This document shows, in pieces, positions 7,313-63,683 of a stretch of 64,000 nt of DNA; the first letter of the stretch is position 1, and each line of letters opens with the position of its first letter. The translations under genes and the position numbers were made by a program. A model generated the notes under the pieces. It had not been told where the DNA came from, ran no database searches, and saw nothing but the letters and a program-made list of their open reading frames with translations. The DNA comes from Flintibacter faecis (GTDB lineage Bacteria; Bacillota; Clostridia; Oscillospirales; Oscillospiraceae): positions 123,384 through 187,383 of the forward strand of contig NZ_JACOPN010000007.1 in the NCBI RefSeq assembly GCF_014287875.1. Direction: 5' to 3'.

Positions 7313-8035
7313 TCACGCCTGGTCCAAAAAGCTGGCCGGGTCCATGGGCTGGCCGTCCATGCGGGTCTCCAGATGGAGGTGGGGGGCCAGGCCGCTCTCG
7401 GCGATGGCGGTGTCCCCCACCGCGCCCAGAATATCCCCGGTGCGCACCGTGTCCCCCTCCTTCACCGTGGGCTTGGCAGCCAGATTTGCATAGGTCGTGC
7501 GCAGGCCGTCCCCCTGGTCCACCACCACCGTGGTACCCATCAGGCCGTCCTGTTTGATTTCAGCCACTGTGCCCGGGCCCATGGCCAGCACCTCGGTCCC
7601 AATGGCGGCGGCCAGGTCCACCCCGCCGTGGGTGCGCCAGTCCCCTAACGTCGGGTCCAGGGTCAGCGCCTCCACACTGAAGGGCCGCAGCACCTCCCCC
7701 TTCACCGGGCGGGTGTACACCACCGGCTCCTGTCCCCTGGCCGCGGGTTCCGGGTCGTCTGAACCAGCTGCGGGAGCGGGAGCCGGGTCCGGCTGCCTGG
7801 CCTGGGTATCCGGCTTGACCACCGGTGCAGGCTCTTCCGGTATCTCGGGCAGATCGGGCAGGACCACCGACGCGCTCCCCCCTGCCGGGGAGGATGCCGC
7901 CGGTTTGGCGGTAAAATTGTGGATCAGGGCATAGCCCGAAACGCCAATGGTGGCGACGCACAGCAAAAGGACGATGTAAAAGCCCTTCCCCAGCACAAAG
8001 TCGCCCAGCTGTTCCAGCCTGCTTCGTTTTTTCAC
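7313..8035 (-). CDS. Membrane-anchored M23-family protein, SpoIIQ-like
   Basis: 240 residues from a GTG start preceded by GGAGGTGG. One membrane segment lies near residues 17-38, then a Pro/Ala-rich linker, then a C-terminal lysostaphin-type (M23) domain. Both metal motifs are visible: HGGVD (His...Asp) and HLHLE. SpoIIQ is the forespore protein that meets SpoIIIAH across the intermembrane space during engulfment. The size, single anchor and M23 domain fit, and spoIID lies 2 kb away. A general cell-wall endopeptidase is the alternative. An upstream ATG extension lacks a ribosome site and looks spurious. Confidence 0.8.
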   Translation of the reverse strand: MKKRSRLEQLGDFVLGKGFYIVLLLCVATIGVSGYALIHNFTAKPAASSPAGGSASVVLPDLPEIPEEPAPVVKPDTQARQPDPAPAPAAGSDDPEPAARGQEPVVYTRPVKGEVLRPFSVEALTLDPTLGDWRTHGGVDLAAAIGTEVLAMGPGTVAEIKQDGLMGTTVVVDQGDGLRTTYANLAAKPTVKEGDTVRTGDILGAVGDTAIAESGLAPHLHLETRMDGQPMDPASFLDQA

Positions 8036-8201
8036 GGGAAAACCACCTCCGTGGTGAAAGTTTGTCCGCCCACCGGGCGAACTATACCCCCTTGGAAAAC
8101 TTTTTCGCCGCCGAAAGCTCCCCCTGTTCTGGACGGAGCCCCGCATTTGTGCTATGCTGACCTGGACGGGCCTGTGAATGGCCCCATTGGAGGTTTTTAT
8201 C

Positions 8202-9452
8202 ATGTATCAGCAGATCACTCTGCCCAACGGCGCGCGGCTGCTCACGGAGGAGGTCCCCGGGGCCCGCTCCGCCGCTCTGGGCTTTTTTGTGGGGGTGGGC
8301 TCCCGCCACGAGCGCCAGCGGGAGAACGGCGCGGCCCACTTTATCGAGCACATGCTCTTCAAGGGCACCCAGCGGCGCTCCACCGCCCAGCTGGCCCGGG
8401 ATATGGACGCCATCGGCGGCCAGGTGAACGCCTATACCACCAAGGAGCACACCTGTTTTTACGCCCGCAGTCTGGACAAACACCTGGACATCAGCCTGGA
8501 TATCCTGTCCGACATGCTGTTCCACTCCCGCTTTGACCAGGGGGACGTGGAGACCGAGCGGGGCGTGGTGCTGGAGGAGATCGGCATGTACGAGGACAGC
8601 CCGGAGGACCTGGTGTCCGAGCGGCTGGCCGCCGCCGTGTACAAGGGCAGCCCCCTGGCCCGGCCCATTCTGGGCACCCAGGCCACCCTGACCCCCATGA
8701 CCGGGGAGTGGCTGGCCCAATGGCAGCGGGAGCACTACCGCCCCGGGGCCCTGGTGGCCGCCCTGGCGGGCAGCTTTACCCAGGGGCAGGTGGACCGCCT
8801 AAAGGACTGCCTGGCCCAGCTGGAGCCCGGCCCCGTGGCCCAGACCAAGCCTGCGGCCTATCGCCCCGCCGTCACCGCCCGGAAGAAGGCCATCGAGCAA
8901 AACCACCTGATCCTGGCCTTCCCCTCTCTCACCTATCTGGATGCCCGGCGGCCCCAGCTGCTGCTGCTCAACGCCCTGCTGGGCGGGGGCTGCTCCTCCC
9001 GCCTGTTCCAGGAGCTGCGGGAAAAGCGGGGTCTGTGCTATACCGTATACTCCTATGTGTCCGACCACGCCGATGCCGGCTTTTTGGGGGTGTACGCCGC
9101 CCTGAATCGGGAGCAGGAGGGCCAGGCCCTGGATGCCATGCGGAATCTGGTGTGCGAGCTGGCCGACCACGGCCCCACCCAGGAGGAGCTGGACCGGGTG
9201 CGGGAGCAGGCCAAGGCCAACCTGCTCATGGGCTCTGAGTCCATCCAAAGCCGCATGAGCCAGCTGGGGGCCTCCGTCCTGCTGTATGGCCGGGTGCGGG
9301 AGATGGACGAGCTGCTCGCCCAATACGATGCCGTCACCCGGCAGCAGCTCCGGGACCTGGCGCAAAATATCTTCCAGATGGACCTGGCCTCCCTGTCCGC
9401 CGTGGGCCGGGTAAAGACCGCCGCCGACTATTCCGCCTGGCTTGGCCGATGA
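8202..9452 (+). CDS. M16-family zinc metallopeptidase (processing-peptidase/insulinase type)
   Basis: 416 residues. The N-terminal domain has the inverted zinc motif HFIEH (near residue 47) with the downstream Glu region (ERGVVLEEIGMYEDSPEDL). The C-terminal M16 domain has GGGCSSRLFQELREKRGLCYTVYS, the usual substrate-contact R/Y region. The size matches the single-chain Bacillus MlpA/YmxG-like group. The start at 8202 is preferred because GGAGG lies 8 bases before it. It is probably cytoplasmic, since no signal peptide is present. Confidence 0.92.
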   Translation: MYQQITLPNGARLLTEEVPGARSAALGFFVGVGSRHERQRENGAAHFIEHMLFKGTQRRSTAQLARDMDAIGGQVNAYTTKEHTCFYARSLDKHLDISLDILSDMLFHSRFDQGDVETERGVVLEEIGMYEDSPEDLVSERLAAAVYKGSPLARPILGTQATLTPMTGEWLAQWQREHYRPGALVAALAGSFTQGQVDRLKDCLAQLEPGPVAQTKPAAYRPAVTARKKAIEQNHLILAFPSLTYLDARRPQLLLLNALLGGGCSSRLFQELREKRGLCYTVYSYVSDHADAGFLGVYAALNREQEGQALDAMRNLVCELADHGPTQEELDRVREQAKANLLMGSESIQSRMSQLGASVLLYGRVREMDELLAQYDAVTRQQLRDLAQNIFQMDLASLSAVGRVKTAADYSAWLGR

Positions 9453-9470
9453 GACCCGCATAAAAAAGCG

Positions 9471-9516
9471 CCCCTCCGGGCACACTGAACGCAGAAGACG
9501 TTCCAAACCGGAGGGG
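9471..9516 (+). promoter_or_regulatory. Long-range hairpin that would cover the ribosome binding site of the CBS gene
   Basis: CCCCTCCGG at 9471-9479 pairs perfectly with CCGGAGGGG at 9508-9516. The second arm contains the Shine-Dalgarno of the next gene (ATG at 9526) and is followed by a short T-run. It could be a terminator for the M16 gene, a translational switch, or both. Confidence 0.55.
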
Positions 9517-26160: not shown

Positions 26161-28275
26161 TCATATCCGGTGCTCCTGCATCCCCGGCCCAAACCGGGAG
26201 AAGAACTCCTCGGGGGGCATGGGGCGGCCGAAGTAATAGCCCTGCAGGCGGTCACAGCCCAGGCTTTTCAGCAGCTGGCCCTGTTCCTTTGTCTCGATGC
26301 CCTCGGCGACACAGCCCAGGCCCAGCTTGTGGCACAGGTCGATGAGGGAGCCGATGACCGCCTGTTCCCGGGGGCCGTGGTCGGCTTTGGAGATCAGGCT
26401 CCGGTCGATCTTGACCAGGTCCAGCTGGGGCAGATAGAGCATCTCCAGGCAGGAGCACTCCGTGCCCATGTCGTCCACGGCCACGGCGATGCCCCGGGCC
26501 TTCAGGGCGTTCAGCCGGTCCTCAATGCTCTCCAGCTGCAGCCCCCGGGAGGACTCGGTCACCTCGAAGATAAGCTGGCTGTGGTCCACGCCGGTGCGCG
26601 TCAGAATATCGTCGATGCGGTCTAAGTAATCCAGCTCCGCCAGGGTGTTCCGGGACATGTTGCATGCGAGCTGAAAGCCGGGCCACCTCTGCCCCACGTC
26701 CCTCAGCAGGCGGCAGGACTGCTCCAGCATCTCATAGTCCACCACGGAGATCAGGTTTTCCTCCTCCATCATGTGGACAAATTCAAAGGGGGCGCAGACA
26801 CTGCCGTCCTCACCGATCCTCCGCACCAGGGCCTCCGCCCCGATGACCGCCCCCTGCTCCACCCCATACAGGGGCTGGAGATAGACTACGAACTTGCTCT
26901 GGCGGAACTCCCGCAGCAGCCCGTCCAGATACTCCGGGCGGCCCGGGCGGCGGGGGCTGCTGTCCCCCCGCATGGCGTATTTTCGCCGCTGGGCATACAT
27001 CACCTGCTCCGCTTTGTGGAGCAGCTCGTTTAAGTCCTCTGTCTCCGACCCCCAGGCATAGCCAAAGGTGGCCAGGCCCTCCTGGCTGTTTTTCAGTTCC
27101 TTTTCCATGGCCCGGCAGGCAGACCAAAAGGGGCGGTAGCCCATGTCGGAGCAGATTATCACAAATTCGTCCCCGCTGACCCGATAGATCTGCTTCTTGG
27201 GAAAGAACCGGCACATGACCTGGCAGGCCTTTAAGATCACCTGGTTGCCATAGGCGTGACCCAGGTGGTCGTTCACCCATTTCAGGCCGTTGATGTCCAG
27301 ATAGCCCACGCCGGTGGGCAGTTCTCTGCCCTGCAGGCTGTCGATGGTCTCGTCATAGGACAGGCGGTTGGGCAGACCGGTGAGGGTGTCGGTATAGCTG
27401 TTGGCCAGCAGCCGGGCGTGCAACTCCCGCTTTTGTACCTCGTCAGAGATGAAATAGGCGATGTGGGTCAGCAGCTCGGTGGACTCCATGCCCCCCTGCG
27501 GGTCGTCCACGCCCAAAAAGCCATAGAGCTTGTCCTTGCAGAAGATGGGCACCTCGGCCACCGCCTGGATGCCCTGGGCGGACAGACACGCATACTCCTC
27601 CTGGCGGCCCGGAATATCTTTCAGGGCCTCAATGCTGTGGATGGTCATCAGCTTGCCCTTCCGTTCCTTCAGCACCTCCAGCCATTCCCGCATGTTCTCC
27701 AGGGGCACGGCCTGGAGATTCTGGATCTCCGACGTGACCCCGGGGGCGCACACCTCATAGGTGTTGGTGGCCGTCCCCTTATCCCAGTCGATGCGGAACA
27801 CATAGGCCCGGGCCGCCTGATACTGCTGGCGGATGATCTCCAGCACCTGGTCCATGGCGGCATCAAAGTCGTCAGACAGCACCAGCTTGTCAATGCACTC
27901 CACCAGCTTCTGCTCTGTGGCCAGACTCAGCTCCGCCTCAAAGATGTGGGCATAGCGGGTCACATTCACCGCCAGCTCCATGCGGCAGGGGCGGCCATTC
28001 ACCGTGACGATGCTGTCGTGGAGCAGCAGATGACCTATGCCCGGCAGTTTCCGGTGCCAGGTATAGCGGTGGTCCGGGTCCTCCCGCAGGCGCTGGTTGG
28101 TACAGAAGGCACAGGGGGCATCCACGCCCTGCAGATATTCATAGCATTTTACCCCGGGTGTCACCGGGCCATACTGCTTCTTCCCGCAGCGATTGACAAA
28201 TATGACTTCGCAGGTATCTAAATCACTGAGATAGATCACCTGGTCGATCTGATCCAACACATCATATAGTTCCAT
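26161..28275 (-). CDS. PAS/GAF-GGDEF-EAL cyclic-di-GMP protein
   Basis: 704 residues, no membrane segment. The PAS-like N-terminus has a Cys cluster (CGKKQYG...CYEYLQG...CAFC). A GAF domain (about 130-290) follows. The GGDEF domain has SGDEF in place of GGDEF, so cyclase activity is uncertain. The C-terminal EAL phosphodiesterase domain keeps EALVR, the FEVTES Glu, DDMGT, KID and AEGIET, so c-di-GMP hydrolysis is plausible. The Cys-rich sensor may hold a metal or react to redox state. Single-gene unit. Confidence 0.9.
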   Translation of the reverse strand: MELYDVLDQIDQVIYLSDLDTCEVIFVNRCGKKQYGPVTPGVKCYEYLQGVDAPCAFCTNQRLREDPDHRYTWHRKLPGIGHLLLHDSIVTVNGRPCRMELAVNVTRYAHIFEAELSLATEQKLVECIDKLVLSDDFDAAMDQVLEIIRQQYQAARAYVFRIDWDKGTATNTYEVCAPGVTSEIQNLQAVPLENMREWLEVLKERKGKLMTIHSIEALKDIPGRQEEYACLSAQGIQAVAEVPIFCKDKLYGFLGVDDPQGGMESTELLTHIAYFISDEVQKRELHARLLANSYTDTLTGLPNRLSYDETIDSLQGRELPTGVGYLDINGLKWVNDHLGHAYGNQVILKACQVMCRFFPKKQIYRVSGDEFVIICSDMGYRPFWSACRAMEKELKNSQEGLATFGYAWGSETEDLNELLHKAEQVMYAQRRKYAMRGDSSPRRPGRPEYLDGLLREFRQSKFVVYLQPLYGVEQGAVIGAEALVRRIGEDGSVCAPFEFVHMMEEENLISVVDYEMLEQSCRLLRDVGQRWPGFQLACNMSRNTLAELDYLDRIDDILTRTGVDHSQLIFEVTESSRGLQLESIEDRLNALKARGIAVAVDDMGTECSCLEMLYLPQLDLVKIDRSLISKADHGPREQAVIGSLIDLCHKLGLGCVAEGIETKEQGQLLKSLGCDRLQGYYFGRPMPPEEFFSRFGPGMQEHRI

Positions 28276-39085: not shown

Positions 39086-40744
39086 TTACACCTCCATGAT
39101 GACAGGCAGGATCATGGGGGAGCGTTTTGTCTTTTTGTACAGGTAGTTGGACAGGTCGCCCTTGATGGTGCTCTTGATGGCGGACCAGTCGGTGGCATAG
39201 CGGGTGTCCACGCTCTGGATGGCCTCCATGGCCACCTGGCGCAGCTCCTCCATCAGGCCCTCCGACTCCTTTACATATACAAAGCCCCGGGTGATGATGT
39301 CCGGGCCGGAGACCAGGGCTCCGTCCTCCCCGGACATGGACAGCACCACCACGATCATGCCGTCCTGGGCCAGGTGGCGGCGGTCCCGCAGGACCACGCT
39401 GCCCACGTCGCCCACGCCGTAGCCGTCCACAAAGACCTGACCGGCGGTGACGGTGCCCGCCAGGCGGGCGGAGTTGGGGGTGAGCTCCATGACCCGGCCG
39501 ATGTCGCTGACCAGCACATGGTTGGGGTCCATGCCCATGCCCTGGGCCAGACGGGCGTGGATCTGCAGCATCCGCTGCTCGCCGTGGACGGGGATGAAGA
39601 ACTTGGGCTTGACCAGGGCGTGGACGATCTTCAGCTCCTCCTGGCAGGCGTGGCCGGAGACATGGAGGGCCAGCTCCCGCTCGTTCATCACCTCGGCCCC
39701 CTTGCGGTAGAGCTCGTTGACCACGTTGCCAATGGCGTTTTCGTTGCCCGGGATGGCGGAGGCGGAGATGATCACCCGGTCCCCGGGCATCAGGTCCACC
39801 TGACGGTGGGTGTTAAAGGCCATGCGGGTCAGGGCGGACATGGTCTCGCCCTGGCTGCCGGTGGTGATGATGCACACCTTGTGCTTGGGCAGGGATTTGA
39901 TGTGGTTCAAGTCCATCAGCACCCCGTCCGGCACATTCATATAGCCCAGCTCGGTGGACACCTTCATGATGTTCTCCATGGACCGGCCGGTGACGGCCAC
40001 CTTTCTGCCATAGCGGGCGGCCACGTCGATGATCTGCTGGATGCGGTCCACGTTGGAGGCGAAGGTGGTGACGATGATGCGCTCCTGGCAGCCCCGGAAC
40101 AGGGCATCGAAGGAGGCGCCCACGCTGCGCTCGCTGCGGGTAAAGCCGGAGCGCTCCACGTTGGTGGAGTCGGCCAGCAGGGCCAGCACCCCCTCCTTGC
40201 CCAGCTCGCCCAGGCGGGCCAGGTCCATCATCCCTCCCTGGATGGGGGTGGAGTCGATCTTGAAGTCGCCGGTGTGGACGCAGGTGCCCACGGGGCACTT
40301 GATGGCAAAGGCCACTGCGTCGGCGATGGAGTGGTTCACATGGATGAACTCCACGCTGAACTTGCCCGCCTTCACCACGTCCCCGGCCTCGCAGGTGATG
40401 AGCTTGGTCTTGGACAGCAGGCGGTGCTCCTCCAGCTTCAAGCGGATCAGGCCCATGCTCATGCGGGTGGCATAGATGGGGGCGTTGATGGAGCGCAGCA
40501 CATAGGGCAGGGCCCCGATGTGGTCCTCGTGTCCGTGGGTGATGAAGATGCCCCGGATCTTGCTCTGGTTCTTGATGAGATAGCTCACGTCGGGAATGAC
40601 CACGTCGATGCCATACATATCGTCATCCGGGAAGCCCATGCCGCAGTCCACCACGATGATGTCGCCGCCGTACTCATAGACGGTCAGGTTCTTCCCGATC
40701 TCGTTCAGTCCGCCCAGGGAAATAATTTTCAGTTTTTCTGCCAT
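39086..40744 (-). CDS. rnj: Ribonuclease J
   Basis: 552 residues. Metallo-beta-lactamase/beta-CASP nuclease with 5'-3' exo- and endonuclease activity on RNA. Zinc motifs: THGHEDHIGALPY, HTGDFK and the later beta-CASP motifs (GRSMEN, SGHACQEELK). A C-terminal domain is present. Together with RNase Y it supplies the mRNA decay machinery. A 5' leader of about 300 bases (40745-41044) separates it from the nearest promoter. Confidence 0.96.
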   Translation of the reverse strand: MAEKLKIISLGGLNEIGKNLTVYEYGGDIIVVDCGMGFPDDDMYGIDVVIPDVSYLIKNQSKIRGIFITHGHEDHIGALPYVLRSINAPIYATRMSMGLIRLKLEEHRLLSKTKLITCEAGDVVKAGKFSVEFIHVNHSIADAVAFAIKCPVGTCVHTGDFKIDSTPIQGGMMDLARLGELGKEGVLALLADSTNVERSGFTRSERSVGASFDALFRGCQERIIVTTFASNVDRIQQIIDVAARYGRKVAVTGRSMENIMKVSTELGYMNVPDGVLMDLNHIKSLPKHKVCIITTGSQGETMSALTRMAFNTHRQVDLMPGDRVIISASAIPGNENAIGNVVNELYRKGAEVMNERELALHVSGHACQEELKIVHALVKPKFFIPVHGEQRMLQIHARLAQGMGMDPNHVLVSDIGRVMELTPNSARLAGTVTAGQVFVDGYGVGDVGSVVLRDRRHLAQDGMIVVVLSMSGEDGALVSGPDIITRGFVYVKESEGLMEELRQVAMEAIQSVDTRYATDWSAIKSTIKGDLSNYLYKKTKRSPMILPVIMEV

Positions 40745-46757: not shown

Positions 46758-46789
46758 GAACCCCCCGCCGGGTGTCCGGCGGGGGTTAG
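46758..46789. terminator. Terminator between the ArsC-like gene and the lyase operon
   Basis: AACCCCCCGCCGG...CCGGCGGGGGTT stem in the convergent intergenic region. Confidence 0.75.
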
Positions 46790-46790
46790 C

Positions 46791-47036
46791 TTATTTGCAG
46801 AATTCCGATTTCCGAAACAGCGAGCGGAGCAGCACGATCCAGCCCCAGGAGATAGACAGGGTGGGCAGACAGGCCAGCAAAACGGCCTTCACCGGGTGGA
46901 TCTCGGAAAAGCAGATGGGTCCGAAAAACATGACGAACACCACCACCATCATCACCAGCAGGGTGATCTTCTCCATCCGGGTGTTGGGGGGCGTAAGAAA
47001 AATTTTCTTCAGATCGATCTCCACTTGCTTTTTCAT
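46791..47036 (-). CDS. Small two-helix membrane protein, third gene of the lyase operon
   Basis: 81 residues, basic/amphipathic N-terminus then two membrane segments (about 23-45 and 48-70). Its ATG follows the lyase stop by one base (TAATATG), so the two are translationally coupled. No family recognised. The position suggests a role in the same process, for example product export or transporter modulation. Confidence 0.65.
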   Translation of the reverse strand: MKKQVEIDLKKIFLTPPNTRMEKITLLVMMVVVFVMFFGPICFSEIHPVKAVLLACLPTLSISWGWIVLLRSLFRKSEFCK

Positions 47037-47037
47037 A

Positions 47038-48573
47038 TTACTTCAACGCTCCAGTCACAGATTCCACCGTGCGGATCAGACCGCCGGAGTGGATAAAGTC
47101 CTTCAGATACACGATATAGGGATACAGAAAGTCGTCCTGCTTCAGCACGGGCACATGCTTGGCGATCTCGTCCAGCACGGCCTGGGTGGCGGGGCTGCGC
47201 TTCACCTCCGGGTCCACGAACTGCTGCACCTGATAGGCGGACAGCAGCTCGATGGCCAGCACATACTCCAGCTTCTCCGCCATGGGGCCGGACTTCTTGC
47301 AGGCCAGATAGCCCATGGCCACATAGTCCTCCTGGTTGCAGCAGGTGGGGGTGTTGTCGATGGTGGCGGGGGTGGCCAGGCCGCGCATCTCGTTGATGAG
47401 GCCCGCCTGGGTATACTGGGGGATCATCAGGCCGGAGTTCAGGCCGGGGCTCGCAATGCAGAAGCTGGGGTAGCCGGACAGGGACTCGTCGATGATCCGG
47501 TTGTTCCGCCGCTCAGACATCTTGGCCAGAGAGACGGCGGCGATGCAGGCGGAATCCATCTCCATGCCCACATAGGCGGAGTCGGGGTTGCAGGCAGAGA
47601 TCACGTCCTGGCTGCCCTCCTCGGGCCACAGGATGGGGTTGTCACAGCAGGAGTTCATCTCGATCTCGATGGTCTCTTTGGCATCCCGGAAGGTCTTTTT
47701 GGCCGCACCGTGGAGCTGGGGGATGCACCGCAGGGACAGGGCATCCTGCACCCGGTGGCCCTGGTACTTCTCGATGATGCCGGAACCGGCCAGGATGCGG
47801 CGGACGTTCTCGGCGGTGTCCCCCTGGTCAGCGTGGGGGCGCACCTGCATCACCCGCGCGTCAAAGGCGTTCATCACGCCCTTCAGGGCCTCCAGCGACA
47901 TGGCCCCGACGATGTCTGCGGACTTGGCGGCCTTCTGGAAGTCGTAAAGGCCCAAAGCGGCCATGGCGGTGGCGGAGGTGGTGCCGGACACCAGGGCCAG
48001 GCCCTCCTTCGAGCTGAGGGTGATGGGCTCCAGACCGGCCTTTTTCAGGGCCTGGTCGCCGGGCAGCAGCTCGCCCTGGTAATAGGCCTTGCCCCGGCCG
48101 ATGAGCACCAGGGCCATGTGGGCCTCGGGGGACAGATAGCCCACGCTGCCGTCCCCGGGGGCCCAGGGGGTCAGACCCCGGTTCAGGAACTGGCGGTACT
48201 GCTCCAGCAGCTCCAGCCGCACGCCGCTGTAGCCCTGGCCCAGGTTCTGCAGGATCATCAGCATGATGCCCCGCACCCGCTCGATGCTCAGGGGCTCGCC
48301 CAGGGAGACGGAGTGGGACAGGATGATGTTCTCCTGCAGCTTGGCCGTCTCCTCCTTGCTGATGGCCTTGGTACACAGGGCGCCAAAGCCGGTGGTGACA
48401 CCGTACATCACCTTCTCCTCGTCCACCCAGCGCTCCACCAGCTGGCGGGACTTGTCCACCCGCCGGCAATAGTCGTGGGAGAACTCCACCTGTGCGCCCT
48501 CCCGGCACACAGCGATAAACTGCTCCATGGTGACGGGCTCACCCAGCACGATGGTTTTCTTTTCCGTGTTCAC
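47038..48573 (-). CDS. MIO-less histidine-ammonia-lyase homologue, candidate ergothionase
   Basis: 511 residues, GTG start with GGAGGT. The whole fold matches HAL/PAL lyases: YGVTTGFG (Tyr57), LSHS (His), SLRC (Arg) and NSCCDNP. But the MIO region reads GSVGYLSPEAHM near residue 142 where lyases have GSVGASGDLAPLAH, so the Ala-Ser-Gly that forms the cofactor is gone. The Asn of LxNGT is Ser (VSGTT), and the Tyr of QDxYSxR is Leu. Known ergothionases are HAL relatives without MIO that release trimethylamine from ergothioneine. The BCCT neighbour supports a trimethylammonium substrate. It is not expected to be a true HutH. Confidence 0.8.
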   Translation of the reverse strand: MNTEKKTIVLGEPVTMEQFIAVCREGAQVEFSHDYCRRVDKSRQLVERWVDEEKVMYGVTTGFGALCTKAISKEETAKLQENIILSHSVSLGEPLSIERVRGIMLMILQNLGQGYSGVRLELLEQYRQFLNRGLTPWAPGDGSVGYLSPEAHMALVLIGRGKAYYQGELLPGDQALKKAGLEPITLSSKEGLALVSGTTSATAMAALGLYDFQKAAKSADIVGAMSLEALKGVMNAFDARVMQVRPHADQGDTAENVRRILAGSGIIEKYQGHRVQDALSLRCIPQLHGAAKKTFRDAKETIEIEMNSCCDNPILWPEEGSQDVISACNPDSAYVGMEMDSACIAAVSLAKMSERRNNRIIDESLSGYPSFCIASPGLNSGLMIPQYTQAGLINEMRGLATPATIDNTPTCCNQEDYVAMGYLACKKSGPMAEKLEYVLAIELLSAYQVQQFVDPEVKRSPATQAVLDEIAKHVPVLKQDDFLYPYIVYLKDFIHSGGLIRTVESVTGALK

Positions 48574-48660
48574 AACGTACCTCCACACTGTGCTCCCCCG
48601 CCCGGGAGCACATTCTCCCAGGCGGCGGCACAGCAACTTCTTAACTTCAATGCTCCAAAC

Positions 48661-50244
48661 TTACTGCTCGATCTGGTCCACGCTGTCCACGATATCCTTC
48701 TTGGTCTCGGGGTCCAGGAAGAATACCTTGATGGCGGCAGCCACCTGAAGGATGAACACGATCAGGACCACCGCGCCGCCGCAGGCAGCCAGATACTTCA
48801 CGCCGTCCACGCCCTGGGCGCCGCCGCCGAAGGCCACCATGATGCAGGCAATGGCGCCGATGGACACGCCCCAGACGATCTTCTGCCACATAGCGGGCTC
48901 CTCGTCGTGGCGGGCGCCCTTGGTGCACAGGGCGGCGATGGTGGTGGACATGGTGTCAGCGGTGGTAGAGAAGGCGGCGATGAGGGAGATGATGACCACG
49001 GGGATGATGATCGCGCCCAGCGGCACATGCTTCAGGAACTCCCAGATACCGGCCACAGCGCCGCCGTCCTGGATGGCGGCAATGATGTCGGCCTTGCCGC
49101 TGATCTGCCAGTCCAGGGCGGTGCTGCCCCAAACGGCAAACCACACAAAGCCAAAGCCGGCGGGCAGCAGGAAGTTTACGGTCATGAACTGGCGCACGGT
49201 GCGGCCATAGGCGATCATGGCGAAGAAGATGCCCATCAGGGGGGCGTAGGCGATCCAGATGGCCCAGTCATACATGGTCCACCAGGTGACCAGGGCGGAG
49301 CCGCCCACCACATAGGGATCAAAGCCCCACATCCAGAAGCGGTCCAGCCAATAGCCCAGGCCCACGTTGGCCATGTTCAGGATATACACGGTGGGCCCGA
49401 TGATGAACAGCAGGATCAGCAGCACATAGAAGATCTTGGAGGTCAGACCGGCCAGCCACTTGATGCCCTTGTCCATGCCGGTCACGGAGGCGATGGTAAA
49501 GGTGGCGGTGATGATGGCGGTGAGGACGATCCACACCACAGGGCCCTGGGCCACGCCATAGGCGGCATACAGACCGGTGCCGATCAGCGCCAGGCCGGCA
49601 CCCAGAGAGGCGGCCAGACCCAGAGCGATGGCCAGCACGGACAGCACATCGATGAGCACCACCCAGATGCCCTTGGTGACCTTGTCGCCGAACAGGGGGG
49701 TGAGGGAGGCGGCCACGGTCAGGTCCTTTTTGCGGTTGAAGTACATATAGGCGATGAGCACGCCGGACAGGGCGTACATGGCATAGGGGATCACGGTCCA
49801 GTTATAGAAGCAGCGGCCCATGGCAAACCAGGCGGCCTCGTCAGACAGGGCCTCGATGCCATAGCCGTCCAGCTCGCCGTAGATGTTGCCGAAGTAGATC
49901 AGCACCTCGTTCACGCCATAGGTGATCAGGCCGGTGGCGATACCGCCGGTCAGGGTCATGGCGAACCAGGAACCGAAGGAGTACTTGGCCTTGGCCTCGG
50001 GGCCGCCGAAGCGGATCTTGCCCACCTTGCTGAAGGTCAGCATACAGGCCAGGACCAGCGTGACCATGGCCACCACCTGATACAGCCAGCCGAAGGTACT
50101 CAGGGACCAGCCGAAGATGGCGTTGGTCACAGAGGTCAGCCACTCGTTGTTGACGATGCCCAGAATGGCAGCGCCGCCGATGACCGCAAAGCAGGGAATA
50201 AATACATCCCAGCGGATCGGCTTCTGATTGGTTTCATGTTTCAT
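48661..50244 (-). CDS. BCCT-family transporter (betaine/carnitine/choline type)
   Basis: 527 residues, about twelve membrane segments. The BCCT signature region is present as TWWTMYDWAIWIAYAPLMGIFFAMIAYGRTVRQF, with Trp/Tyr residues that normally cradle quaternary ammonium groups. Family members carry glycine betaine, carnitine, choline and related trimethylammonium compounds by Na+/H+ symport or exchange. First gene of the operon; a sigma-54 promoter lies 80 bases upstream. In this context it probably imports the lyase substrate. Confidence 0.93.
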   Translation of the reverse strand: MKHETNQKPIRWDVFIPCFAVIGGAAILGIVNNEWLTSVTNAIFGWSLSTFGWLYQVVAMVTLVLACMLTFSKVGKIRFGGPEAKAKYSFGSWFAMTLTGGIATGLITYGVNEVLIYFGNIYGELDGYGIEALSDEAAWFAMGRCFYNWTVIPYAMYALSGVLIAYMYFNRKKDLTVAASLTPLFGDKVTKGIWVVLIDVLSVLAIALGLAASLGAGLALIGTGLYAAYGVAQGPVVWIVLTAIITATFTIASVTGMDKGIKWLAGLTSKIFYVLLILLFIIGPTVYILNMANVGLGYWLDRFWMWGFDPYVVGGSALVTWWTMYDWAIWIAYAPLMGIFFAMIAYGRTVRQFMTVNFLLPAGFGFVWFAVWGSTALDWQISGKADIIAAIQDGGAVAGIWEFLKHVPLGAIIIPVVIISLIAAFSTTADTMSTTIAALCTKGARHDEEPAMWQKIVWGVSIGAIACIMVAFGGGAQGVDGVKYLAACGGAVVLIVFILQVAAAIKVFFLDPETKKDIVDSVDQIEQ

Positions 50245-50325
50245 GTTGTGTCACCCGTATGTAAGCCGCAGCCGCGTCCTACATACACTCTCCTTTCTGT
50301 GTTATCCACACGCTTTATAAATACA

Positions 50326-50340
50326 GCAATTCCCGTGCCA
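50326..50340 (-). promoter_or_regulatory. Sigma-54 promoter of the BCCT-lyase operon
   Basis: Read leftward: TGGCACG, four bases, TTGC, an exact -24/-12 consensus. It lies 82 bases before the transporter start, facing away from the activator gene. Confidence 0.9.
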
Positions 50341-50501
50341 TTTCTTAAAAAATCACCTGAATTTTTTCTTTTTATTTATTTTATACAATTCCGCGCATTC
50401 TATTCTGTACATATTCGCCAGTTTCTTGCCACCTTGCTCCCTTTGTTTCGTGGGGACACATTCCCCGTCATCTCCGTCCTTTTTCGCTGTTCGTTCTTAT
50501 G

Positions 50502-50538
50502 TGCAATTTGTTTTTGCAGTATGCAAAAATAAATTGCA
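50502..50538. promoter_or_regulatory. Two 17-bp activator sites (UAS) between the divergent genes
   Basis: TGCAATTTGTTTTTGCA at 50502-50518 and TGCAAAAATAAATTGCA at 50522-50538. The second is the inverted form of the first with one mismatch; centres are 20 bases apart. They lie about 160-200 bases upstream of the -24 element and just before the activator's own -35. Confidence 0.8.
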
Positions 50539-50543
50539 TTTTC

Positions 50544-50572
50544 TTGACGAACAGGGGCGCGCGCTATATAAT
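50544..50572 (+). promoter_or_regulatory. Sigma-A promoter of the sigma-54 activator gene
   Basis: TTGACG, 17-base spacer, TATAAT. The adjacent UAS at 50522-50538 suggests autoregulation. Confidence 0.75.
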
Positions 50573-50625
50573 TCTATCATAAAATGCTCTGTCTCGTCTG
50601 GCCCTGTGTCAAAGGAGGATGCCCC

Positions 50626-52293
50626 TTGTACTTATTTGATGTCTTGTTCACCATCGGGCCCCGGGAGGAATTTCTCAGCCTGACCTGGGGCGGGGAGCAC
50701 GCCGCCCTGCCCTATCGCCCCATGTGTGAGCACTGGGTGGAGCAGCGCCACAAAATTTTTGAGGTGCTGCCCCTGCCCGACCAGCGCCCCGGCGGCAGTC
50801 TGGTGTGGAACGGGGAGCAGCTGGCCTATCTGCTGCTGCCCGCCCCGGAGGGAAAGCAATATCTGCTGCTGTCCTGGAACGCCAACACGGAGTTTCTGTA
50901 CACCCGGGCCCTGGATCAGCTCCCCTTCGGCGTGCAGATCTATGACAAGAACACCCACGCCGTCTATTTCAATCAGGCCAGCCGGGAGATCTCCCACATT
51001 CCCAGCGGCGTGAACATCACCGGGCGGCACCTGCTGGACATGTATGACCTGGAGGAGACGGTGAGCACCACCATGACCGCCCTGCGCACCCAGTCCCCGG
51101 TCATCGACCGGGTGGACCAGTTCTCGGTGGACAACGGCACGTTTATTGCCAGCGCTAACACCTCCTACCCCATTTTTCAAAACGGTCAGCTGTCCGGTGC
51201 GGTGACGTTTGAGCATACGGAAGAGACCATTCAAAAATATTATCAGAGCATCCAGGACACCCGCCAGGCGCTGAAGCACTTCTCCGGCAGCGCCGCCCCC
51301 GTCCGCTTCTCCGGCTATACCTTTGAAAACGTCATCGGCGGCAGCGAAAAGCTCCGCTCCGCCGCAGAGCTGGCCCAGCGGGTGGCCCCCCAGAACAGCC
51401 CCGTCATGCTGGTGGGAGAAACGGGCACGGGGAAAGAGATCTTCGCCCAGAGCATCCACCGCTCCAGCCCCCGGGCGGGGAAAAAATTCGTGGCCATCAA
51501 CTGCGCTGCCATCCCGGAGACCCTCATCGAAAGCCTGCTCTTCGGCACGGCCAAGGGCAGCTTCACCGGCAGCGAGGACAAGGCCGGCTATTTTGAGGAG
51601 GCCAGCGGCGGCACCCTGTTTCTGGACGAGCTGAATTCCATGAGTCTGGTCATGCAGTCCAAGCTGCTGCGGGTGCTGCAGGAGCGCACCTTCCGCCGGG
51701 TGGGCGGCAAAAAAGATCTGGAGCTGGACGTGCGCATCATCTCCTCCTGCAACGAGGACCCCTTCCAGACGGTGGAGGAGAACAAGTTCCGCCGGGACCT
51801 GTTCTACCGCCTGTCCTCCGTCATCATTGAGCTGCCCCCCCTGCGGGAGCACCTGGAGGACCTGGAGCAGCTGACCTGGTACCACCTGGAGCAGACCGCC
51901 TTTCAGTATGTCCACCGCATCACCCGCATCCAGCCCCAGGTCTATCAGCTGCTGCGGGCCTATCGCTGGCCGGGCAACGTGCGGGAGCTGTTCCATGTGC
52001 TGGACTACGCCCAGAACGTGGCCGACAGCGATGTGATGACGGTGGAGCATCTGCCCGCCTATCTCCGCAAGAACCAGGCCCCCGCTCCCCGGCAGAGCGC
52101 TCCTCTCACCCCCTCCGGCCATATCGACTTCTCCCACACCTCTCTCCAGGCCCTGATGGACGACTATGAGAAGGAGGTCATCACCCAGGCCCTGGACCGC
52201 TGCGGCTATAACATCTCCCAGACCGCCCAGGCCCTGGGCATCCTCCGCCAGAGCCTGCAATACCGCATCCGCAAATATGGGATCATCTTCTGA
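50626..52293 (+). CDS. PAS-containing sigma-54-dependent transcriptional activator
   Basis: 555 residues, TTG start with AAAGGAGG. A novel N-terminal segment (about 1-90) precedes a PAS domain (about 95-210; LPFGVQIYDKNTHAVYFNQASREIS). The AAA+ domain has Walker A GETGTGKE, GSFTGS in the GAFTGA loop that contacts sigma-54, and Walker B GTLFLDELNSM. The C-terminal Fis-type helix-turn-helix is NISQTAQALGILRQSLQYRIRKYG. It is divergent from the sigma-54 operon and almost certainly its activator, with the PAS domain as a possible substrate sensor. Confidence 0.95.
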   Translation: MYLFDVLFTIGPREEFLSLTWGGEHAALPYRPMCEHWVEQRHKIFEVLPLPDQRPGGSLVWNGEQLAYLLLPAPEGKQYLLLSWNANTEFLYTRALDQLPFGVQIYDKNTHAVYFNQASREISHIPSGVNITGRHLLDMYDLEETVSTTMTALRTQSPVIDRVDQFSVDNGTFIASANTSYPIFQNGQLSGAVTFEHTEETIQKYYQSIQDTRQALKHFSGSAAPVRFSGYTFENVIGGSEKLRSAAELAQRVAPQNSPVMLVGETGTGKEIFAQSIHRSSPRAGKKFVAINCAAIPETLIESLLFGTAKGSFTGSEDKAGYFEEASGGTLFLDELNSMSLVMQSKLLRVLQERTFRRVGGKKDLELDVRIISSCNEDPFQTVEENKFRRDLFYRLSSVIIELPPLREHLEDLEQLTWYHLEQTAFQYVHRITRIQPQVYQLLRAYRWPGNVRELFHVLDYAQNVADSDVMTVEHLPAYLRKNQAPAPRQSAPLTPSGHIDFSHTSLQALMDDYEKEVITQALDRCGYNISQTAQALGILRQSLQYRIRKYGIIF

Positions 52294-52317: not shown

Positions 52318-52354
52318 CAAAAACAGGGTGCCGCCTCAGCGCGGCACCCTGTTT
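52318..52354. terminator. Bidirectional terminator
   Basis: AAACAGGGTGCCGC...GCGGCACCCTGTTT between the convergent activator and GGDEF genes. Confidence 0.9.
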
Positions 52355-52356
52355 GC

Positions 52357-53421
52357 TTATTTTCCGGCGGTCTTATTTTCATACATCTCCCGGTCGGCCC
52401 GTTTGATGGCGCTGCCCGCGTCGGTCTCTGCCGGGTCGAAGGGGGTCATTCCCACGGCCACATCGGGCAGACAGGGCAGCTTCTCCCGCTCCGCCGCCAG
52501 CAGGGTCTTGAACTGCTCTGTCCGGGCCTGGGCTTGTGTCCGGTTCCCGTCAAAGATGACGCAGAACTCGTCCCCGCCGATGCGGTAGCATTGGCCCTCC
52601 CGGCCATAGGCCTGGTGCATGGCCCGGGCGATGGTCTGGAGCACCTGATCCCCCCGCTGGTGCCCATAGTGGTCGTTCACTTCTTTAAAGCGATTCACGT
52701 CCATCATCAGCAGGGTCACCGGGCAGCGGAGGCGGGCCAGCCGGCTGTCATAGCCCCGGCGGTTGCGCAGCCCGGTAAGGGCATCGGTGTTCTGCACCAC
52801 GCCGGAGTAATATAAATAGGTGAACATCACCGCAAAGGCCAGGCAGGGATAGTCCGCCCGGATCTGCCGGTTGCACAGGCGCATTCCCACCCCACTGACA
52901 AAAAACAGCAGGATCAGGGCCATGATATTGCCCCCGGCGGCCTGGTTCCGGCGGCTAAAGCACACCCCCTCCCAGATGAACACCAGGGCGGCGGTGAAAT
53001 AGACCGCCACGTAGATCCAATAAAGCTCCCCGTGGTAATAGGCATTGCGCTCGTCAAAGGCCACGATCAGGCCGAAGGGGGCGGCGGCCAGCTCCACCGC
53101 TACGTGGACGATGAGCAGCCATTTCAGCTGCCTGGCCCGGCCCTCCGCGTCCAGGGCCCGGAGAAATTCCACCGCCACAAAGGGGGCGATAGACAGCTCC
53201 AGCACCTTCACCCCCAGGTGCAGCCACCGCAGCCCGGGGCCGCTGCCGTCCAGAAGCACGGTCAGCCACTCCGCCCCGGCAGCGGCCACCACTGTGGCAA
53301 AAATCACCTGAAACTGCCGCTGCTTCTCCCGGTCCAGCCAGTCACTGCTTTGGACGATCAGGGCCATGATGCCCATGGCAAAGCAGGTGAGATAGATCAT
53401 CGCGCTGTAATAGGCCGTCAT
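52357..53421 (-). CDS. Membrane-bound diguanylate cyclase
   Basis: 354 residues. Seven hydrophobic segments (about 1-200) form a membrane sensor. A complete GGDEF domain follows: DALTGLRNRRGYD, DVNRFKEVNDHYGHQRGD, YRIGGDEFCVIF. It should make c-di-GMP from GTP; the signal is unknown. With the EAL protein at 26-28 kb it shows that the strain uses c-di-GMP. Confidence 0.92.
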   Translation of the reverse strand: MTAYYSAMIYLTCFAMGIMALIVQSSDWLDREKQRQFQVIFATVVAAAGAEWLTVLLDGSGPGLRWLHLGVKVLELSIAPFVAVEFLRALDAEGRARQLKWLLIVHVAVELAAAPFGLIVAFDERNAYYHGELYWIYVAVYFTAALVFIWEGVCFSRRNQAAGGNIMALILLFFVSGVGMRLCNRQIRADYPCLAFAVMFTYLYYSGVVQNTDALTGLRNRRGYDSRLARLRCPVTLLMMDVNRFKEVNDHYGHQRGDQVLQTIARAMHQAYGREGQCYRIGGDEFCVIFDGNRTQAQARTEQFKTLLAAEREKLPCLPDVAVGMTPFDPAETDAGSAIKRADREMYENKTAGK

Positions 53422-55591: not shown

Positions 55592-56509
55592 CTAAAAAAT
55601 ACTTAGGTAAAGCCGATTAGATAAACGCTCCAGCAGCTGGATCCCCGCCAGACTGTTTCCCTTCTCGTCCAGGCCGGGGGAGAAGATGCCAATGCCCATC
55701 CGGGTGGGCACCACCGCCATGATGCCGCCTCCCACGCCGCTTTTGGCGGGGACGCCCACGTTCACTGCGAAGGCCCCCGACCCGTCGTACATACCGCAGG
55801 TCATGAGGATGGCGTTGACGTAGTTGCCGTACTCCCGGTCAAAGACCCGCTCCTCGGAGTCGGGCAGGGTGCCGTGGCTGGACAGCACCGACCCGATCAC
55901 CGCCAGATCCTGGCTGGTCACCGAGATGGAGCAGGCCTTGAAGTAGAAGTCCAGCACCTCCTCCACGTCGTCCTCCAGCATTCCGTAGGTTTTCAGCAGA
56001 AAGGCCAGGGCCCGGTTTTTGTAGCCGGTGTGCTTTTCCGACAGGTACACGTCCTGGTCCAGCTGGATGTCCGGGTTTCCCGCCAGCTTCCGGGTCAGCT
56101 CCAGCAGACGCTGGAACTTCTCCTCATAGCTGGCCCCATGAATGAGCCCGCAGATGGCGATGGCCCCCATGTTCACCATGGGGTTCAGGTGGTCGCTGAG
56201 CAGGGTCTGGTCGGTCACATTGATGGCGTCAAAGGGCTTGCCGGTGGCCTCCACCCCCACCCGGGAGCGGACATACTCCTCCCCGTTGTCCATCAGGGCC
56301 AGCAGCAGCAGGATGGGCTTGATAACACTCTGGATGGCAAAGGGCTTGTTCCAGTCTCCGGCGTGAAAGTGCTGCCCGTCGCTGCGCAGCACGTAGATGC
56401 CCAGGTCGTCCAGATTGGCCTTGGCCAGTTCGGGGATGTAGGTGGCCACCTTTCCCTGGCGGGCGTAGGGGCGGCACTGCTCCAAAAGTTCTTCTAACAA
56501 CGCTTCCAT
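55592..56509 (-). CDS. glsA: Glutaminase A
   Basis: 305 residues. Serine beta-lactamase-like glutaminase hydrolysing glutamine to glutamate and ammonia. Markers: FAIQSVIKP (Ser-x-x-Lys), NPMVNMGAI, YKNRALAFLLKTYG, GVPAKSGVGGGI and the usual ending LSIF. GAGG precedes the ATG at 56509. The MFS fragment upstream may be a remnant of a partner transporter. Confidence 0.95.
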   Translation of the reverse strand: MEALLEELLEQCRPYARQGKVATYIPELAKANLDDLGIYVLRSDGQHFHAGDWNKPFAIQSVIKPILLLLALMDNGEEYVRSRVGVEATGKPFDAINVTDQTLLSDHLNPMVNMGAIAICGLIHGASYEEKFQRLLELTRKLAGNPDIQLDQDVYLSEKHTGYKNRALAFLLKTYGMLEDDVEEVLDFYFKACSISVTSQDLAVIGSVLSSHGTLPDSEERVFDREYGNYVNAILMTCGMYDGSGAFAVNVGVPAKSGVGGGIMAVVPTRMGIGIFSPGLDEKGNSLAGIQLLERLSNRLYLSIF

Positions 56510-56570
56510 ATAAACCTCATTTCTTCTTTCCCGGTGCAGCCCTGAACCGGGCCCTGTCCGGAGTTTAAAA

Positions 56571-56600
56571 TTGCCGCGCATCCATGGGATGCGCGGCAAT
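56571..56600 (-). terminator. Terminator after the MFS fragment
   Basis: ATTGCCGCGCAT/CCATGG/GATGCGCGGCAAT, T-rich leftward. Confidence 0.8.
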
Positions 56601-62751: not shown

Positions 62752-62827
<76 letters not shown>

Positions 62828-62834
62828 AAATAAA

Positions 62835-62911
<77 letters not shown>

Positions 62912-62949
62912 ATTTAAATCTATGAAAACGGAAGAACCGTAATTTACAA

Positions 62950-63025
62950 TGGCAGGGGCAGAAGGAATCGAACCCTCGGCACGCGGTTTTGGAGACCGCT
63001 GCTCTACCAGCTGAGCTATACCCCT
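62950..63025 (-). tRNA. tRNA-Trp (CCA)
   Basis: 76 bases with CCA. Acceptor AGGGGTA/TGCCCCT, anticodon loop CTCCAAA. Confidence 0.96.
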
Positions 63026-63028
63026 ATG

Positions 63029-63105
63029 TGGTGGGCCTTCACGGGCTCGAACCGTGGACCGACCGGTTATGAGCCGGCTGCTCTAACCAACTGAGCTAAA
63101 GGCCC
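63029..63105 (-). tRNA. tRNA-Met (CAT)
   Basis: 77 bases with CCA. Acceptor GGGCCTT/AAGGCCC, anticodon loop CTCATAA. It is not an initiator (no CGCGG start or GGG/CCC anticodon stem). An Ile2 tRNA with lysidine at CAT cannot be excluded. Confidence 0.88.
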
Positions 63106-63166
63106 AAACCGTTCAAACTTATTTCTTGAAAGAGCGGCTTGCCGTCGTTCTGGCGACAAGCCGCTT

Positions 63167-63242
63167 TGGCTCCCCAAGTTGGACTCGAACCAACGACCCT
63201 GCGGTTAACAGCCGCATGCTCTACCGACTGAGCTATTGAGGA
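63167..63242 (-). tRNA. tRNA-Asn (GTT)
   Basis: 76 bases with CCA. Acceptor TCCTCAA/TTGGGGA, anticodon loop CTGTTAA. Confidence 0.96.
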
Positions 63243-63250
63243 ATGTGAAA

Positions 63251-63275
63251 GGGTCCGGCCTGGTCGACCAGACCC
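63251..63275 (-). terminator. Hairpin between 5S rRNA and tRNA-Asn
   Basis: GGGTCCGGCCTGG/CCAGACCC imperfect stem. Possibly a processing site or a partial terminator inside the operon. Confidence 0.45.
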
Positions 63276-63279
63276 TTGT

Positions 63280-63394
<115 letters not shown>

Positions 63395-63424
63395 TTAATT
63401 TTTTGCGCTTTGTCTTACTTACTC

Positions 63425-63455
63425 AAATTTCAAACCAGCGCAGCGTTTGAAATTT
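63425..63455. repeat. Hairpin in the 5S-tRNA-Glu spacer
   Basis: AAATTTCAAA...TTTGAAATTT around a GCGCAGCG loop, in the 136-base spacer. Likely an RNA-processing structure. Confidence 0.5.
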
Positions 63456-63529
63456 GAAACGAGAAAACAGCGGTGGGAGCGAGCTTTCGTGTTTACACGG
63501 AAGCGAGCGATCCATAGCTTGTTTTCGAC

Positions 63530-63604
63530 TGGTGACCCGTACGGGAATCGAACCCATGTTTGCGGCGTGAGAGGCCGCCGTCTTAACCGCTTGACCAACG
63601 GGCC
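63530..63604 (-). tRNA. tRNA-Glu (CTC)
   Basis: 75 bases with CCA. Acceptor GGCCCGT/ACGGGTC, anticodon loop CTCTCAC. CTC reads only GAG, so a TTC isoacceptor must exist elsewhere. Confidence 0.93.
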
Positions 63605-63607
63605 AGA

Positions 63608-63683
63608 TGGTGCGCCTTCAGGGATTCGAACCCGGGACCCACTGATTAAGAGTCAGTTGCTCTACCAACTGAGCTAAAGGCGC
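63608..63683 (-). tRNA. tRNA-Lys (CTT)
   Basis: 76 bases with CCA. Acceptor GCGCCTT/AAGGCGC, anticodon loop CTCTTAA. Confidence 0.95.

Follow-up and report, generated by a model that had tools for sequence, protein, structure and literature searches.

The closest described relatives of the lyase considered here are the histidine ammonia-lyases (HAL; HutH), with their 4-methylideneimidazole-5-one (MIO) group, and the ergothionase of T. denticola (6s7j/6s7q), which has the HAL fold without MIO; the closest known carriers for its partner transporter are BetP, CaiT and the trimethylamine transporter 8zw8. Relatives of both kinds were found together in Flintibacter faecis, in a stretch of 64,000 nucleotides (contig NZ_JACOPN010000007.1, positions 123,384 to 187,383; the window), where a BCCT transporter, a HAL-fold lyase lacking MIO and a small membrane protein form one operon beside a divergent sigma-54-dependent activator. 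The window lyase shares with HutH the NQED motif, Tyr53 and His83 (PpHAL numbering) and, in relatives, the HutH-like feeding of HutU, but unlike HutH it has neither Ala-Ser-Gly nor Tyr280, carries Ser at the position of Asn195 and has a BCCT as its partner. With the T. denticola ergothionase it shares the missing MIO, Leu280 and the equivalents of Tyr53, Arg283 and Glu414, and members of the ergothionase clade often adjoin a BCCT, as the window lyase does; the T. denticola enzyme differs in belonging to another clade, in its loop (SSIGEGDITTLSH versus GSVGYLSPEAH) and in being only about 28% identical, and the context of its clade is a molybdenum (Mo-) hydroxylase rather than Hut.

The comparisons indicate that the BCCT probably imports hercynine and that the lyase probably eliminates trimethylamine from it, leaving urocanate. 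The first-pass annotation of this DNA had proposed inducible uptake of ergothioneine, hercynine or a similar betaine with release of trimethylamine. An apparently inducible uptake and trimethylamine-lyase cassette for a trimethylammonium derivative of histidine is supported, and of the substrates named hercynine fits the gene context of relatives best; ergothioneine is unsupported, the lyase standing outside the ergothionase clade, which the annotation had itself named as an outcome that would refute it.

The lyase among HAL-like enzymes

The lyase was matched to PF00221 at 552 bits (Pfam), and in NCBIfam it passed the cut-off of PRK09367, histidine ammonia-lyase (532.5 against 524), and failed that of the hutH equivalog (513.5 against 539). 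Its loop GSVGYLSPEAH is three residues shorter than the HAL loop GSVGASGDLAPLAH, and alignment with HAL and ergothionase bore out the earlier statement that Ala-Ser-Gly is missing. GSVGY was present and the MIO precursor absent in 120/120 homologs among the matches listed (best of 5,286; 68–99% identical to the window lyase). Residues were compared in an alignment of 146 rows, two of which are start variants of one protein, after pieces below 381 aa and five duplicates had been dropped. Tyr280 and Asn195 occurred together in all 34 MIO rows, and Leu280 in 87 of the 94 loop-deleted rows and in 16/16 ergothionase-type rows, residue 280 itself having been used in naming the groups. In the window lyase, HAL Tyr280 is not kept and Leu279 takes its position, while the equivalents of Tyr53, His83, Arg283 and Glu414 are retained. 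The roles of these four residues, and those of the MIO precursor and Tyr280, are taken to be the ones assigned in HAL work. The AlphaFold2 model, built on a 28-row alignment (pLDDT 91, pTM 0.92), was compared with solved structures, as had been proposed; its fold matches P. putida HAL (TM 0.91–0.93, 35–36% identity) as well as ergothionase 6s7j_A (TM 0.90, 28% identity).

In quick trees, of which a second version was rooted with an aminomutase outgroup, the 16 ergothionase-type rows including 6s7j formed one starred group (99; 98 with the outgroup) with the window lyase outside, and the window lyase fell within the loop-deleted group (100 for 92 rows; 97 with the outgroup). At Lys383 of 6s7j, presumably a catalytic residue, Lys was found in 13/16 ergothionase-type rows and Tyr in 87/87 window-type rows; Asn62 was present in 16/16 ergothionase-type rows, and the window-type rows mostly have Leu there. 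The window lyase scored 180 bits to 6s7j versus 306 to a MIO HutH. A Mo-hydroxylase was encoded within 6 kb of 11/15 ergothionase-type versus 4/86 window-type lyases. Assignment of the window lyase to the ergothionases was rejected on the basis of tree, residues and gene context. NCBIfam is no test of ergothionase identity, since two ergothionase-clade proteins matched no ergothionase model there at E 1e-40. Two independent losses of MIO were hinted at by the free tree; a single group of all MIO-less rows was not rejected (p-AU 0.647), and two losses are not claimed.

Both types of lyase may occur in one genome. In C. symbiosum a window-type lyase (77% identical) is accompanied by two lyases of the ergothionase clade (448 and 531 bits to 6s7j, each from its own search) and by one or more MIO lyases (L095), and in A. 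massiliensis a 921-bit ergothionase lies 3.8 kb from a window-type lyase. The Mo-hydroxylases near ergothionase-clade lyases are of the xanthine dehydrogenase family (L013, L019, L115–L117, L119 and L122–L126) and are candidates for the step after thiourocanate in those loci.

Several further HAL-like enzymes were observed. Blautia loci L008, L014, L015, L016 and L027 carry a tandem second MIO-less lyase, 55–59% identical to the window lyase. Seven MIO-less rows (including L009 7734–9290, L037 13370–14938, L067, L083, L121 and L128) make up a third group, with the loop equally deleted, Tyr280 in 6/7 and a QEDP or QESP motif. Enzymes with MIO and Asp in place of His83 were seen in L088, L089, L091, L094, L095 and L096, with a HutU-like protein (595–645 bits) at most about 11 kb away on the same contig. 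A K. pneumoniae plasmid typed as conjugative (L081) carries a hut cluster, an ABC transporter and, at 7980–9512, a MIO-less lyase with the loop GSVGYLIATA, annotated as an aromatic amino acid ammonia-lyase.

Hut partners in relatives and the rival explanations

Gene context was surveyed in 80 loci (L001–L080; 1.40 Mb), the best 80 of at least 583 relatives by similarity, and HutU and HutI clusters were each found in 17 of them. In four Bacilli loci (L049, L055, L056 and L080) the order AraC-BCCT-lyase-HutU-HutI-HutG runs on one strand, in L043 and L046 HutU-HutI-HutG precede BCCT-lyase, and L039 and L040 hold the single run HutH (MIO)-symporter-BCCT-lyase-AraC-HutU-HutI-HutG, the symporter of L039 being Na_Ala_symp. 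HutG is an arginase-family protein (L056) and in L040 scored 184 against a hutG cut-off of 229. Lyase-linked HutU was scored in 11 of the 17 loci (L022, L039, L042, L043, L046, L049, L050, L055, L056, L070 and L080) against models for hutU (cut-off 375 bits), thiourocanate (930) and S-methyl-thiourocanate (880) hydratases; all 11 exceeded the first cut-off, ten with 983–1022 bits and L022 with 432, and none exceeded either of the others. Since the partners are urocanate hydratases, the lyase would most simply deliver urocanate, and its substrate would have a plain imidazole. Hercynine is favoured over ergothioneine because HutU of the urocanate type stands with HutI and HutG, and because ergothionase-clade lyases are present in the same genomes. 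In G245 and G247 the HutH-linked HutU set is separate from the lyase-linked one, and in G246 and G249 HutH is without HutU in the 14 kb examined. The lyase gene of L080 (9977–11508) is split between two frames in an otherwise complete run. One thiourocanate hydratase (1021 bits; G250, the genome of L050, C26:224860–226461) was the only one over cut-off in 32 carrier genomes.

Genome-wide, HutU was matched in 41/46 lyase carriers (38 over cut-off) versus 23/200 genomes of the Pseudoflavonifractor family (22 over). For the 11 carriers that stand closest to the window in the tree, a group chosen after the tree was seen and containing several metagenome-assembled genomes (MAGs), 7 had HutU over cut-off versus 22/200 (p 0.0001). 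The cassette is an accessory trait, orthologs at 78% or more having been found in 2/200 genomes of this family. A survey of Bacilli at E 1e-160 showed the lyase in 3/44 and 1/41 genomes.

Several observations weigh against hercynine as the substrate. Neither the window cassette nor any of its nearest relatives was seen to have a Hut gene next to it, and the Hut link therefore depends on more distant loci; the Bacilli lyases are 56–64% identical to the window lyase, which leaves room for a shift in substrate. In a newly found Bacilli carrier, L137, the BCCT-lyase pair is present, but the 19 kb examined contain no Hut gene. Five of the 46 carriers have no HutU match and eight have none over cut-off (several being MAGs), and the 46 come from several families, so that the background of 23/200 suits only some. 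HutU within 6 kb was found for 15/86 window-type versus 1/15 ergothionase-type lyases, a difference that is not significant (p 0.45) and was dropped as a contrast between the two, and the ergothionase-type locus L126 has HutU, HutI and FtcD nearby. MttB-family genes lie within 6 kb of 4/86 window-type lyases, as many as have Mo-hydroxylases. The lyase's nearest relative, L129 in G045 (82–83%), and also L009 and L010 adjoin a BCCT that is only about 34% identical to the window BCCT and has another motif. The MttB-family methyltransferase genes near window-type lyases (L048, L065, L066 and L075) point to methylamine chemistry; the L065 protein scored 219.6 bits to TIGR02369, under the cut-off of 525.

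Among the alternatives, action of the lyase on other or broader aromatic or imidazole betaines, such as ergothioneine sulfonate, S-methyl-ergothioneine or several of these, is unlikely, though less so than the others. The sub-clades do differ in their neighbours, which include MttB-family genes, Mo-hydroxylases and tandem second lyases; close relatives differ also in the type of BCCT, and its motif is partly common with BCCTs beside ergothionase-type lyases. Against this, in six Bacilli loci the BCCT-lyase pair directly adjoins HutU, HutI and HutG with no additional ring-modifying enzyme in the run, and Glu414, which we take to bind imidazole in HAL, is kept. It is improbable that the window lyase is an ergothionase, converting imported ergothioneine to trimethylamine and thiourocanate. 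The tree placement, the lower score to 6s7j, the replacement of Lys383 by Tyr, the two other C. symbiosum lyases within the ergothionase clade and partner HutU proteins that are urocanate and not thiourocanate hydratases all argue against it, in spite of the loss of MIO and Leu280 in common with the T. denticola enzyme, the single origin of MIO-less lyases left standing by the topology test and the ergothionase activity reported, at species level, for C. symbiosum in the available part of PMC13405746.

The two other explanations have very little probability. A MIO-independent histidine ammonia-lyase would agree with HAL being the closest solved relative by sequence and Foldseek rank, with the name given by PRK09367 and with the Hut linkage of relatives, but the MIO precursor and Tyr280, whose roles are assumed as above, are both lost, the partner is a BCCT instead of an amino-acid permease, and a MIO lyase is also encoded in at least 30 of the 32 carrier genomes searched, twice in the same run (L039 and L040). 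Least probable of all is an osmolyte or sensing system with a non-catalytic lyase: BCCTs presumably often import osmolytes, but the Tyr53, Arg283 and Glu414 equivalents are conserved, a sigma-54 activator adjoins the cassette and the relatives have Hut linkage.

Transporter, regulation and layout of the locus

The BCCT was matched to PF02028 (365.9 bits, gathering threshold 27) and fell under every NCBIfam BCCT cut-off listed. BetP was aligned to it at 202 bits, and most betaine-cage positions, as we take them to be numbered, are aromatic in the window BCCT, as in BetP; in YDWAIWIAYAP, Asp replaces a BetP Tyr, as it also does in several BCCTs adjoining ergothionase-type lyases. The motif [ML]YDWAIWIAYAPLMG, in place of which BetP has FYWAWWISWSPFVG, is common to most lyase-linked BCCTs, with variation within it in L007, L020, L030, L060 and L070; the BCCTs of L009, L018, L037, L067, L069 and L129 are of a different type. 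The 81-aa membrane protein had no match in Pfam or NCBIfam, and its homologs were found in 28 loci, mostly directly 3' of the lyase. It probably belongs to the transporter, because a homolog trails the BCCT also in the ergothionase-type locus L115 of C. symbiosum.

The three genes named by the first-pass annotation are all present, some coordinates and starts having been corrected (Table 1): the lyase starts at a GTG with GGAGG 6 nt upstream, rather than at a TTG at 48636, and the activator likely at a TTG with AGGAGG. The exact -24/-12 promoter also stands; TGGCACGGGAATTGCT, that is TGGCACG-N4-TTGCT, has its sole exact match in the 64 kb here, and with one mismatch allowed 2 matches were found against 0.71 expected. 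Relaxed -24/-12 sites occurred in 23/34 activator-linked upstream regions, at 1.50 per kb versus 0.02 per kb overall. Two 17-bp palindromes set 20 bp apart (0.01 expected per window) had not been noted before. Their pattern, TGCAWWWNNNWWWTGCA, which was shaped after a first inspection of the window and upstream regions, occurs 20 times in the 1.40 Mb of L001–L080, 20/20 within the 15.3 kb upstream of 34 activator-linked operons, and is present in 16/34 activator-linked loci. The paired operator would thus be a mark of the regulon, and it may be bound by the activator. One sigma-70-like site for the activator gene was found, where shuffles of the region would give 1.6. Terminator-like hairpins flank both ends and are not enriched (3 in the region versus 4.3 in shuffles, by consensus scan).

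The activator had been described as a divergent PAS-AAA+-Fis protein. It is divergent and, in common with PrdR and further sigma-54 activators, has the sigma-54 AAA+ interaction domain and a Fis-type helix-turn-helix (HTH); Pfam gave no PAS match at E 0.001. PrdR was its best NCBIfam relative (352 bits, under the cut-off of 795), and the activator differs from PrdR in this score and in the presence of TGCAWWWNNNWWWTGCA at window-type operons.

Table 1. Features of the cassette, in window coordinates
Feature	Position	Strand	Basis or remark
Small membrane protein, 81 aa	46791..47036	-	no family match; likely BCCT partner
HAL-fold lyase without MIO, 511 aa	47038..48573	-	PF00221; predicted hercynine trimethylamine-lyase
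Codons of MIO-replacing loop, residues 142-152 GSVGYLSPEAH	48118..48150	-	sequence, alignment
BCCT transporter, 527 aa	48661..50244	-	PF02028, YDWAIWIAYAPLMG motif; predicted hercynine importer
Sigma-54 -24/-12 promoter	50325..50340	-	exact TGGCACGGGAATTGCT match
Operator 1, TGCAATTTGTTTTTGCA	50502..50518	.	palindrome, 17 bp
Operator 2, TGCAAAAATAAATTGCA	50522..50538	.	palindrome, 17 bp
Sigma-70-like promoter of activator gene	50544..50572	+	TTGACG-17-TATAAT, 11/12; abuts operator
Sigma-54-dependent activator, AAA+ and Fis-type HTH	50626..52293	+	PF00158, PF25601, PF02954
Terminator-like hairpin 3' of three-gene operon	46762..46785	-	10 G-C pairs, loop 4
Terminator-like hairpin 3' of activator	52321..52354	+	14 pairs

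With hercynine as substrate, the activator would sense hercynine or a product, bind the paired palindromes, drive the operon from the -24/-12 promoter and perhaps limit its own sigma-70 promoter. The BCCT, aided by the small membrane protein, would bring in hercynine (histidine betaine), and with trimethylammonium as the leaving group the MIO electrophile would be unneeded. Tyr57 (HAL Tyr53) may take the beta proton as trimethylamine is expelled, Glu415 (HAL Glu414) and Arg282 (HAL Arg283) may hold imidazole and carboxylate, and Leu279 may make room for the methyl groups. The urocanate would pass to a HutU encoded elsewhere or be excreted.

Elsewhere in the window, a GGDEF (cyclic-di-GMP) protein is encoded just beyond the activator on the opposite strand (52357–53421), and a phosphodiesterase-like open reading frame, also a cyclic-di-GMP protein, at 26161–28275. 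Seven clustered tRNA genes (62752–63683) and a glutaminase gene (55592–56599) were also observed. The open reading frame at 39086–40744, which we take to be RNase J-like, is 92–94% identical to counterparts in G201, G045 and G007.

Hercynine as a possible source of trimethylamine

The metabolism of ergothioneine by C. symbiosum and a gut ergothioneine pathway were reportedly addressed by Zhou in 2025 and Feng in 2025, respectively. Trimethylamine is the precursor of trimethylamine N-oxide (TMAO), and urocanate can also feed imidazole propionate formation. In the available part of a 2026 survey of the capacity to convert ergothioneine to trimethylamine, the query was one Burkholderia ergothionase, and ergothionase is described as restricted to few genera, with divergent homologs left uncovered as a caveat (PMC13405746). 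According to PMC7653990, when volunteers were given ergothioneine the main metabolite was hercynine. No hercynine-degrading enzyme was found in the titles and abstract openings of the literature searched, from which subscription journals are mostly absent, so that a prior description is possible.

On balance, sequence and gene context favour an undescribed hercynine trimethylamine-lyase that would provide a second betaine entry to histidine catabolism, by which gut Clostridia would make trimethylamine and urocanate, and in some Bacilli a single operon would encode the full route to glutamate. If this is true, a clade named histidine ammonia-lyase by a curated model makes trimethylamine from histidine betaine, hercynine would be a trimethylamine source that has been overlooked, and urocanate would be formed as well, able to feed histidine catabolism.

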